Shown: in pieces, positions 3,351-25,538 of the stretch
Layout: every line of letters starts with the position of its first letter
How positions within the stretch are numbered: position 1 is the first letter of the stretch
From: an uncultured Bacteroidales bacterium
Lineage (GTDB): Bacteria > Bacteroidota > Bacteroidia > Bacteroidales > UBA4417
Reading direction: 5' to 3'
DNA: 32,806 nt
Assembly (NCBI GenBank): GCA_903946925.1
Contig: CAJAXK010000454.1
Span: 1 to 32,806, forward strand
The notes under the pieces: model-generated
The model's input: the letters and a program-made list of their open reading frames with translations, nothing else
What the model was told of the DNA's origin: nothing
The model's database searches: none
Program-made: the position numbers and the translations under genes

Positions 3351-3486
3351 AATTTGAAAATGAATCAATTTGAAAATTTGAAAATGTGGGGATGTGGGGA
3401 TTTGAGGATGTGGGGATTTGAGGTTGTGGGAATTCGTCAATTTGAAAATTTGAAAATGAGAGAATTTGAAAATGAAGGGTTTGATA
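3351..3486 (+). repeat. Degenerate octamer array (TTTGAA type) between ftsL and ftsI
   Basis: Seventeen consecutive 8-nt units with no slip in register. AATTTGAA occurs at 3351, 3367, 3375, 3439, 3447 and 3463; GATGTGGG at 3391 and 3407; GATTTGAG at 3399 and 3415. The rest are variants such as AATGTGGG, GTTGTGGG, AATGAGAG and AATGAAGG. The core TTTGAA and the 8-nt period link it to the GAACATTT arrays at 17401 and 25429. A short open frame through it (from 3354) only translates the repeat and is not a gene. Confidence 0.85.
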
Positions 3487-3514: not shown

Positions 3515-3591
3515 CAAACAACTAATAGCCATTAACCAATAACCATTAACCGATATCAAATAACCAATAACCATTCACCAATAACTATCAC
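3515..3591 (+). repeat. Degenerate heptamer array (ACCNNNA type) before ftsI
   Basis: Eleven 7-nt units in perfect register, for example CCATTAA at 3529 and 3543 and CCAATAA at 3536, 3564 and 3578; shifted by one base, most read ACCNNNA. It begins 28 nt after the octamer array and ends 8 nt before the ftsI start. The same ACCNNNA pattern recurs at 21114-21190. Confidence 0.8.
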
Positions 3592-15689: not shown

Positions 15690-17258
15690 ATGACAACTAT
15701 GCTTAAATTCGATACGCCTGAGGAACAGGCTCCAATCATTAAAGTAATCGGTGTAGGAGGTGGGGGCAGCAATGCTGTTTCACACATGATGGCACAAGGG
15801 ATAAAAGGAGTAGATTTTTATATCTGCAACACTGATGCCCAATCACTTAACAAATGCGATGTGCCCAATAAAATAAGGCTGGGACATACCGGTTTAGGTG
15901 CTGGTGCAAACCCTTCGGTTGGTCGCGAAGCAGCTTTACAGATTGCCGATGAAATGCGGGAACTTATTTCGCACAATACTTCAATGCTGTTTATTACAGC
16001 AGGTATGGGCGGTGGAACCGGAACCGGAGCCGCACCTGTAATTGCTCAAATTGCCAGGGAATTGGGTATTCTTACCGTTGGCATCATCACCAAACCTTTC
16101 GGATTTGAAGGACGTAAACGGGAAATCCAGGCAACGGCAGGCATCGAGGAATTGAAGAAATATGTTGATACCACACTTGTTATTTGCAATGACAAATTGC
16201 TCGATATGCGTGGCGATATGAAACTCGGACAGGCCTTCTGCGAAGCAGACAACATACTGACCATTGCAGCTAAAGGCATTGCCGAAATAATTACAGTTAC
16301 CGGCAGGATAAATGTGGATTTCGAAGATGTTAAAACTGTAATGGAAGGTAGCGGAAAAGCTATAATGGGCGCTGGGATTGCAAGCGGCCCCGACCGTGCG
16401 GTAAAAGCTGTTGAAATGGCTTTGAACTCACCCTTGCTCGATGATACCGATATAAAAGGAGCAGCTAACGTATTGCTTTATATCACTTCTGGAAAAAACG
16501 AGATTTCGCTCGAAGAACTTAATGAAATCACCGGTTTTATAACCGAACGCACCGGCGACGATGCCAACGTAATTTGGGGGGATGGAATAGACGACAACCT
16601 CGATGACGAAATTACAATTACACTTATTGCTACTGGGTTTAACAGGCCTGTTATTACCAAACACACCCTCAACGAGGCTCAAAACACTATAAACCAACAA
16701 CAAGTAGCAAAAGTTGATAACGCTATTACCGAAGTTCAAATGGTTGTAGAAGTTGCTGCTCTTGCAAAAGCTAATGTGGAACCTATACGGATTTTGCCCG
16801 AACTTACTGTTAACAACCTTCCTTTTACACTTTTTCCGGATTCGGGAACTGAAAAGCCGGCACCAATTATCGAAAAACCCCAACAACTGCCAGAGCCAAT
16901 TGAAATAAGGGGCTTTTTCAGGAAAGAACCAGAATTTGAAGTTGTGATGCCAGCCCCTAAACCAGAACCAATTACAACGGTTTTCGTTTCGGCATCCACA
17001 TCAACCCATACCGCTGAAAAAGAGGAACAACGCGAAGATGAACGCAGGGCCAAGCTTAAAGGCATGAGCCACAAACCTAATGTTGTTTCTAATATCGAAG
17101 AAATGGAGAAGGTTCCAGCTTATCAGCGCCGCAACGTTTTGCTCCCCGATGCAAGCCAGGTAAACGAAAACCCACCTTCGCAATACACCCTGAGCCTCGA
17201 CAACAACAATGTGGGAGGGCTAAAGGAAAATAAATTCTTGCACCACAAAGCGGATTGA
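15690..17258 (+). CDS. ftsZ: Cell division GTPase FtsZ
   Basis: Tubulin-like GTPase that forms the division ring. The N-terminal IKVIGVGGGGSNAVSHM, the NTDAQSL loop and the tubulin signature GGGTGTG (residues 107-113) are intact, as are GFEGRKR and DFEDVKTVM. After the globular core (to about residue 325) comes a long acidic, proline-rich linker. Near the end VPAYQRRNV resembles the conserved FtsA-binding peptide, and the last residues NKFLHHKAD match the tail typical of Bacteroidota FtsZ. 522 aa is long compared with E. coli (383) but normal here. Last gene of the dcw cluster. No terminator is seen before the repeat array downstream. Confidence 0.97.
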   Translation: MTTMLKFDTPEEQAPIIKVIGVGGGGSNAVSHMMAQGIKGVDFYICNTDAQSLNKCDVPNKIRLGHTGLGAGANPSVGREAALQIADEMRELISHNTSMLFITAGMGGGTGTGAAPVIAQIARELGILTVGIITKPFGFEGRKREIQATAGIEELKKYVDTTLVICNDKLLDMRGDMKLGQAFCEADNILTIAAKGIAEIITVTGRINVDFEDVKTVMEGSGKAIMGAGIASGPDRAVKAVEMALNSPLLDDTDIKGAANVLLYITSGKNEISLEELNEITGFITERTGDDANVIWGDGIDDNLDDEITITLIATGFNRPVITKHTLNEAQNTINQQQVAKVDNAITEVQMVVEVAALAKANVEPIRILPELTVNNLPFTLFPDSGTEKPAPIIEKPQQLPEPIEIRGFFRKEPEFEVVMPAPKPEPITTVFVSASTSTHTAEKEEQREDERRAKLKGMSHKPNVVSNIEEMEKVPAYQRRNVLLPDASQVNENPPSQYTLSLDNNNVGGLKENKFLHHKAD

Positions 17259-17400
17259 TCATAAAAGTTATGCATTGACCCTGTATTTAATAATGGGATC
17301 CAAAGCACATAAGGCTTTGATTTCGAACCTAATTTGGTCAATTGTATTAAGCAAATATCGGTTTGGGTTGGCCTTTGTAAAAGTATAGATACAAAGAAGC

Positions 17401-17749
17401 GAACATTTGAACAAGCGAACATTTGAGCATTTGAACGGCGAAGCCAATTGAACCTTGAACAAGCGAACATTTGAACATTTGAACAAAAGAACAAGCGAAC
17501 ATTTGAACGGCGAAGCCAATTGAACCCTTGAACAAGCGAACATTTGAACAAGCGAACATTTGAACATTTGAACATTTGAACATTTGAACCCTTGAACAGC
17601 GAAGCCAATTGAACCCTTGAATAAGCGAACATTTGAACAAACGAACAAGCGAACATTTGAACGGCGAAGCCAATTGAACATTTGAACGGCGAAGCCAATT
17701 GAACTCTTGAACCCTTGAACGGCGAAGCCAATTGAACCCTTGAACAAAA
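17401..17749 (+). repeat. GAACNNNN octamer array with interspersed 17-nt hairpin units
   Basis: The 349 bp parse completely into 30 octamers, one heptamer and six 17-mers, each opening with GAAC or a one-base variant. GAACATTT occurs 13 times (plus one GAGCATTT), GAACAAGC six times (plus GAATAAGC), GAACCCTT five times (plus GAACTCTT and the heptamer GAACCTT), and GAACAAAA/GAACAAAC three times. The 17-mer GAACGGCGAAGCCAATT is at 17433, 17505, 17594 (AGC variant), 17659, 17684 and 17717. The minus strand has no stops in the main units, which explains three overlapping long open frames there. It ends 39 nt before yqeY. Confidence 0.92.
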
Positions 17750-17788
17750 TAACTTTCTTTCAATTACAAAATCCTGAACTAGAAAAAT

Positions 17789-18244
17789 ATGGAACTAGAA
17801 AAACTTATAAACGAAGATATTAAGCAAGCAATGATCAACAAGGACAAGGAAAAACTTGAAGCCTTGCGTTCTATTAAAGCTGCTTTGCTGCTCGAAAAAA
17901 CAGGAAAAGATGTTACTGGCGGCATAATCCCCGAAAGCGTTGAACTGAAAATGCTGCAACGATTAGTGAAACAACGGCGGGAAAGTGCTGGGATTTACCT
18001 TGCACAAGGCAGGCCCGATTTAGCTGAACCGGAATCCTTTCAAGCTTCCATTATCGAAAAATACCTTCCTGAGCAATTGACCGAAGATGACGTGGTTGCT
18101 ATCGTACAAAAAATCATCGCCGAAACCGGGGCTGCCGGAATTAAAGATATGGGCAAAGTAATGGGATTGGCAAGCAAACAAGTTGCAGGCAAAGCCGACA
18201 ATAAAATGATTTCGGAGATTATAAAGAAGCTGTTGCCAGGGTAA
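17789..18244 (+). CDS. yqeY: GatB/YqeY domain-containing protein
   Basis: A 151-aa stand-alone protein related to the C-terminal tRNA-interacting domain of the GatB subunit of the Asp/Glu-tRNA amidotransferase. Its exact role in the cell is not settled. The family pattern is clear: an N-terminal helical segment with DKEKLEALRSIKAALLLEK, the middle LKMLQRLVKQRRESAGIYLAQGRPDLAEPE, then EKYLPEQLTEDDV and the C-terminal GIKDMGKVMGLASKQVAGKADNKMISEIIKKLL. It commonly sits after ftsZ in Bacteroidota. Here the gap holds a 349-bp repeat array. It converges with the MBOAT gene across a bidirectional terminator. Confidence 0.95.
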   Translation: MELEKLINEDIKQAMINKDKEKLEALRSIKAALLLEKTGKDVTGGIIPESVELKMLQRLVKQRRESAGIYLAQGRPDLAEPESFQASIIEKYLPEQLTEDDVVAIVQKIIAETGAAGIKDMGKVMGLASKQVAGKADNKMISEIIKKLLPG

Positions 18245-25428: not shown

Positions 25429-25538
25429 GAACATTTGTACAAAAGAACAATTGAACAAGCGAACATTTGAACATTTGAACATTTGAACATTCGAACATTT
25501 GAACATTGAACCCTTGAACATTGAACCCTTGAACATAA
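25429..25538 (+). repeat. GAACNNNN octamer array in the kbl leader
   Basis: The 110 bp parse into twelve octamers and two heptamers (GAACATT): five GAACATTT, two GAACCCTT, one GAACAAGC, and the variants GTACAAAA, GAACAATT, GAACATTC and GAACATAA. This is the same unit set and strand as the array at 17401, but without the 17-mer. It ends 51 nt before the kbl ATG. Confidence 0.9.

Follow-up and report, generated by a model that had tools for sequence, protein, structure and literature searches.

A GAAC octamer array with hairpin units in an ftsZ–yqeY spacer, read as one copy of an intergenic satellite of a Bacteroidales lineage

Introduction

The STRR repeats of heterocystous cyanobacteria are degenerate short tandem heptamers that lie in spacers and use a family-specific vocabulary. 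Intergenic heptamers of heterogeneous sequence, in which some positions are fixed and others vary, have been described in Xanthomonas, as (GGGANTN)n, and in Nostoc, as GGGGA(C/T)T, in a report that also mentions Calothrix heptamers; they are present in many copies per genome near the ends of ORFs, sit in the same spacers of close species with strong variation in length and sequence, and have been proposed to arise by slippage (PMC4692102). A second family comprises the TAACTGA direct-repeat arrays of Beggiatoaceae, Cyanobacteria and some Bacteroidetes. These arrays are intergenic and in most cases point forward towards a start codon located shortly downstream, may be absent in relatives with the same gene order, and are mixed with other heptamers in Gramella, Aequorivita and Elizabethkingia (PMC4679880). 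REP elements with REP-associated Y1 transposases (REP/RAYT) are dispersed, small intergenic hairpins beside a fixed tetranucleotide (PMC3733652, PMC8266576). The literature on octamer repeats in Bacteroidetes yielded no direct match, and the motif TTCGACAAGCTCAG yielded none either.

Here we analyze a 349-bp array of GAAC units within a 32,806-nt stretch of DNA (the window) from an uncultured Bacteroidales bacterium. In the array, degenerate octamers (GAACNNNN) repeat in tandem and are interspersed with hairpin units (GAAC + GCGAAGC or GGCGAAGCC + ATT/AATT), and we interpret it as a single copy of a satellite located between genes in this Bacteroidales lineage. Like the Xanthomonas and Nostoc heptamers, the GAAC arrays of this genome are intergenic, numerous, composed of fixed and variable positions, and variable between close species. 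Unlike those heptamers, which have a seven-base, G-rich unit with quadruplex-capable GGG runs and no described hairpin units, they are built of octamers and hairpin units on a GAAC core without GGG. Similarly to the TAACTGA arrays, they run forward close upstream of a start codon and are absent in some relatives; they differ from a family with a seven-base unit, exact repeats by definition and, in the parts of PMC4679880 considered, no described hairpin unit, being degenerate octamers with hairpins that do not carry the TAACTGA sequence. The likeness to STRR heptamers, which is one of description only, lies in the degenerate short spacer units and the family-specific vocabulary, the STRR repeats belonging to another phylum and having seven bases.

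The first-pass annotation of this DNA had placed the array outside any named element. A structure without precedent is not supported, given the heterogeneous heptamer repeats already described (PMC4692102, PMC4679880) and the heptamer families of the same design in the same genome. What sets the GAAC arrays apart from the Xanthomonas/Nostoc and TAACTGA arrays is their octamer unit, their hairpin units, their ordered unit types and their larger size; we file them as members of neither named heptamer family and as a real, unusually elaborate case of a known bacterial repeat kind. CRISPR loci share with them the direct repeats in an intergenic array and differ by their unique spacers. The GAAC units, 8-17 bp long, abut directly with no unique spacers between them, so that CRISPR was rejected, as the annotation had anticipated.

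Results

The array occupies positions 17401-17749 (plus strand) in the spacer between an ftsZ-like ORF (15690-17258, plus strand), named from its sequence and its place in a division/cell-wall cluster, and a yqeY-like ORF (17789-18244, plus strand), for which orthologues were found. GAAC lies on the strand that is coding for both neighbouring genes. Tokenizing the sequence confirms the parse proposed at first sight, with 37 units comprising 30 octamers, one heptamer (GAACCTT) and six hairpin 17-mers (30x8 + 7 + 6x17). The tokenized units also bear out a fixed core with few variable endings in mixed order (octamer counts: ATTT 14, AAGC 7, CCTT 5, AAAA 2, AAAC 1, TCTT 1). Two statements of the first-pass annotation hold in part. 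The claim that all units open with GAAC is true of 35 of the 37, the others being one GAGC unit (GAGCATTT) and one GAAT unit (GAATAAGC), and the array is phase-locked within octamer runs but not across its length, because the phase is offset by every 17-mer and by the heptamer. The array has 35 occurrences of GAAC, none of GTTC and no GGG run. Across the window, (GAACN4)2GAAC has 24 matches, versus 0 in each of 20 Markov controls.

All six 17-mers read GAACGGCGAAGCCAATT except one, GAACAGCGAAGCCAATT, and the 17-mer holds the mini-hairpin GGC-GAA-GCC. The first of them lies at 17433-17449 (plus strand; stem GGC/GCC, loop GAA) with its core GGCGAAGCCAATT at 17437-17449 (plus strand); more cores start at 17509, 17663, 17688 and 17721, and one core in the array is a variant with A replacing the first G. 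Tandem Repeats Finder reports a higher-order duplication within the array at 17455-17712 (plus strand; period 89, 2.9 copies, 83% match) and also a 16-bp period. The 3' border of the array, GAACAAAA / TAACTTTCTTTCAATTACAAAATCC at 17741-17773 (plus strand), is common to the sister species (GAACCTTGAACAAATAAACTTTCTTTCATTTACAAAATAT in loci L031/L183).

Three overlapping minus-strand ORFs of 138-202 aa (MFKCSNVQMFKC...) cover positions 17123-17763. Stop codons number 7, 11 and 10 in the three plus frames of the array and zero in every minus frame, and the three ORFs are therefore reading artefacts of the array. A coding repeat was rejected, since the minus strand is without stops in any frame and the units have a length not divisible by three. 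We note that these spurious ORFs are likely to be annotated as hypothetical proteins.

The window contains further arrays. A second GAAC array of 13 units (25429-25538, plus strand) lies between a promoter-like box, TACCTTTG, conserved before kbl in four species, and the kbl start codon. Ahead of a penicillin-binding-protein-like gene, Tandem Repeats Finder identifies a related period-8 array with a different vocabulary (3351-3473, plus strand; units ATTTGAAA / ATGTGGGG / ATTTGAGG), followed directly in the same spacer by a heptamer array of AACCAAT / AACCATT (AACCANT; 3520-3585, plus strand).

The scan of the whole genome that the first-pass annotation had suggested reveals that the array is not unique: (GAACN4)3GAAC has 308 matches in 6.17 Mb (498 contigs), versus 1 for the reversed pattern. 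The array is one of dozens of fast-changing short-unit arrays filling the gaps between genes. In stretches fetched from about 0.93 Mb of the 6.17-Mb genome, where genes were called as simple ORFs and part of the loci were picked via array patterns, we read 50 GAAC arrays with a median length of 207 bp (maximum 431), none of the 50 within an ORF and all thus confined to spacers. Beside the octamers, these arrays hold hairpin units of 14, 15 and 17 bases, and 16-mers are also used in siblings of the ftsZ-yqeY array. A scan of other Bacteroidota, likewise proposed at the outset, found five-unit GAAC arrays in 17 of the 296 genomes sampled, and in abundance in this one only.

The internal structure of the arrays points to growth by blocks. 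Strings of four units recur within arrays 21 times in this genome, versus 4.7 in shuffles, and 20 times in the sister species, versus 0.7. Unit identity at lag 2 reaches 129 (74 +/- 6.5 expected), whereas at lag 1 it is not enriched (72 versus 78), and the duplicated blocks therefore hold two or more units. Simple one-unit slippage alone was rejected for want of the lag-1 enrichment.

Comparison of related species at the same loci reveals extensive turnover. The sister species (G002) has a YqeY that is 96% identical and a ftsZ-yqeY spacer holding a rudiment only, GAACAAT GAACACAAAGCAATT GAACCTT GAACAAA, followed by the common TAAACTTTCTTTC border; the spacer pair aligned poorly in MAFFT, and this 3' border was identified by direct reading. 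None of the other congeners readable at ftsZ-yqeY carries a GAAC array there, and the spacer of G003 instead carries arrays of two hexamers, (GGTTGA)n and (TCAACC)n, inverted relative to each other. The kbl spacer of close relatives contains other repeats or none. At an orthologous pair of arrays (L113 in this genome, L178 in the sister), both borders are kept while the middle differs. As in intergenic heterogeneous short-unit SSR arrays, one and the same spacer thus differs in length and sequence from one close species to the next. A duplication or recombination origin, as had been suggested for the array, agrees with these data, in which multi-unit strings recur above unit shuffles and related species diverge at a given locus. 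We consider it likely that slippage or recombination copying blocks of units explains most of the intergenic satellite.

The position and strand of the arrays raise the possibility that they are instead functional leader or promoter-proximal elements under selection, acting in front of start codons as repeated binding sites or as an unstructured, G-poor spacer and so adjusting how the downstream gene is transcribed or translated. We regard this reading as doubtful, although several regularities speak for it. The downstream gene is on the same strand as GAAC in 34 of 44 arrays, with a median of 51 bp from the array to the next start codon and of 98 bp from the upstream stop codon to the array. 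In co-directional spacers, the strand with GAAC is coding in 28 arrays and template in 6 (p = 2e-4), the split of 10 versus 3 in the sister species not being significant by itself. Unit types are ordered along the arrays, with AT-rich endings early (mean relative position 0.44), hairpins at 0.57 and CTT/CCTT late (0.65); among 2000 shuffles (C-type mean 0.50), these positions were reached by none for AT-rich endings, by 0.2% for hairpins (p = 0.002) and by none for CTT/CCTT. GC skew over array spacers starts at +0.52 after the stop codon and reaches -0.54 ahead of the start codon, compared with +0.15 to -0.29 in spacers without GAAC arrays. Folding is weaker than in shuffles (RNA z +1.8, DNA z +3.3), TTG recurs each 8 bp beside the TAACTTTC box before yqeY, and a similar role has been proposed for TAACTGA repeats.

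Against a leader function, arrays are absent at the same gene in close species, as the rudiment or empty ftsZ-yqeY spacer and the kbl spacer illustrate. They also stand before unrelated genes and on either side of the promoter-like box, TACCTTTG being upstream of the kbl array and TAACTTTC downstream of the yqeY array. The skew gradient exists without arrays, if in weaker form, and weak folding is expected from any GAAC-only repeat; the arrays have no Rfam match. Because spacers show a general GC-skew gradient, the order of unit types may partly follow that gradient in composition. A specific function is not needed to explain the data.

The strand bias itself is probably kept by selection, as a minus strand open in three frames would yield spurious ORFs of considerable length that enter or leave genes. 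Array spacers have 68 coding-strand stops per kb, versus 69 expected, so this stop-codon reason draws on the stop-depleted other strand. A positive function as a stop-codon insulator was rejected, coding-strand stops not being enriched, and a structured RNA was rejected as well (no Rfam match at E <= 1, folding weaker than shuffles). We also note a steady fall of GC skew from the stop codon to the following start codon in co-directional spacers, whether or not they carry GAAC arrays; the fall is steeper in this lineage than in the other Bacteroidota read, where it is weaker still than in the array-free spacers of this genome.

Block copying within arrays, a part of our preferred reading, does not by itself account for the distribution of the 17-mer. 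Its core, GGCGAAGCCNATT, is present in 56 copies in this genome, at about 21 array loci, versus 0-3 copies in each of 15 congeners. By these counts, the 17-mer has spread in this species' lineage only. Hairpin units of the sister species are of the GCGAAGC type (44, versus one GGCGAAGCC). Stem pairing is kept in most hairpin variants, 111 of 135 here and 58 of 74 in the sister, and the unit vocabulary overall is weakly genome-specific (p = 0.06). Independent origin of one 17-mer at some twenty loci is implausible, and some transfer between loci is therefore needed. Exact 49-nt strings link array loci in 6 pairs (shuffles: 0.9 on average, 4 at most), and sister array loci share none; since the excess over shuffles is modest and nothing is seen in the sister, exact sharing gives long-tract transfer between loci weak support at most. 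Recent long-tract exchange between loci was rejected on this modest excess. A module, CACTTCGACA(A/G)GCTCAGTGGCC, is embedded in arrays L112, L125, L126, L148 and L154 and in sister arrays L174 and L178, where it occupies the position of the small hairpin loop: GC[GCACTTCGAC..CAGTG]GCC.

Such a distribution could also be expected if a Y1 (REP-associated) transposase mobilized the GAAC-hairpin-AATT unit as a REP-like element, with the octamers as its debris or targets, a reading we hold to be improbable. It gains from the presence of one exact 17-mer at about 21 array loci in this lineage only, from the fixed tetranucleotide that precedes the hairpin as in REPs, and from Y1_Tnp genes in 16 of 16 congeners. 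Those Y1 genes that were read, in this genome and the sister, nevertheless have other palindromes and no GAAC unit on their flanks, and the highest Y1 copy numbers are those of G003 and G013, both array-poor. Rank correlation with array counts is 0.53 for Y1 copies, versus 0.67 for genome size. Outside arrays, two matches to the 17-mer core were read, both within coding sequence. GAAC beside GGC-GAA-GCC is seen in the hairpin units only; most GAAC units are hairpin-free, and the octamers run head-to-tail. REP/RAYT was rejected, the Y1 genes being surrounded by other palindromes. We grant a comparably slim chance to a specific dispersal process such as hairpin-guided copying, in which the GCGAAGC-type mini-hairpin would write one species-specific unit into many spacers in fixed orientation, making the arrays a continually rewritten code.

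Short-read assembly of repeats might have invented or scrambled the array, and the close genomes with named records are indeed metagenome bins. Among arrays in whole contigs, 4 of 17 lie <=150 bp from a contig end, versus about 6% expected, and the exact unit order in these bins is therefore uncertain. Independent bins nonetheless carry arrays at orthologous spacers with common borders, and unit-order and strand rules are consistent over loci. Other Bacteroidota also have GAAC octamer arrays within contigs that are 0.2-5.5 Mb long, and because several sit inside such long contigs, one of them of 5.5 Mb, the arrays as a class are not an assembly artefact. An artefact is unlikely as the whole explanation, and we rate its probability as very low.

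The first-pass annotation had also entertained an unknown copying or writing process; Y1 transposases and reverse transcriptases are present, but we found nothing that ties either to the arrays among the Y1 and reverse transcriptase genes examined in this genome and its congeners. A dedicated writer, with a reverse transcriptase or similar enzyme copying units from an RNA template into spacers, has next to no chance of being correct in our estimate: few endings in mixed order, one unit at many loci and the reverse transcriptases themselves (three in this genome, five in the sister) would suit it, but those of this genome read by sequence as two group II intron-like and one retron-like, arrays occur with no detected reverse transcriptase in G013, G005 and G008 while G006 has three and no arrays, the rank correlation between the two among congeners is 0.38 (p = 0.14), and internal block duplication requires no template RNA.

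Discussion

In our preferred reading, the satellite would be shaped by three processes: (I) arrays would lengthen and shorten in place by replication slippage or misaligned recombination, in blocks of 16 bp or more, (II) new endings would arise by point mutation and be multiplied by later duplications, and (III) units, chiefly the 17-mer hairpin, would move between arrays by recombination or template switching at shared GAAC-rich sequence. We infer the rate and step size of array change from sequence comparison.

Bacterial spacers can thus hold long satellites of several unit types that have a unit vocabulary, a polarity and rules of strand, even inside a cell-division gene cluster, and such satellites are turned over from one sister species to the other. 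The hairpin unit particular to one species serves as a marker for the passage of units between unlinked loci, for which slippage alone is insufficient. The arrays also matter for annotation and binning, because assemblies break there and spurious ORFs arise.

The design of a core plus a few endings extends beyond GAAC. Other tandem arrays in this genome number 84, located in 58 of 212 non-GAAC co-directional spacers and mostly of periods 7 and 8. They include GATT + {GCG, TCG, TGG, GGG, ACG} and, following the same design, alternating heptamers TTAATGG / AAAATGG / TTAATAG / AAAATAG. Heptamer families with a fixed core and few endings (GATTNNN, AATCCNC, TTAATGG/AAAATGG) were observed at loci L148, L150, L124, L235 and L220 of this genome.

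Complementary tandem arrays also occur in inverted arrangement, as (GGTTGA)n...(TCAACC)n at L135/L200 (G003) and as (TGTTCAAA)n...(GAACATTT)n at L194, making long imperfect hairpins possible. In G224, a distant member of the Bacteroidota, spacers at three loci (L243, L244, L245) contain GAAC octamers with CTCG/TTCA/CCCG endings followed by their inverted complement, an arrangement resembling long terminator hairpins with repetitive arms. Finally, two spacers of the sister species (L181 and L223) carry 21-bp tandem repeats, CAATCTTTGGGTGCTTCACAC and TTTTAGGGTGGATTTTGATGC.
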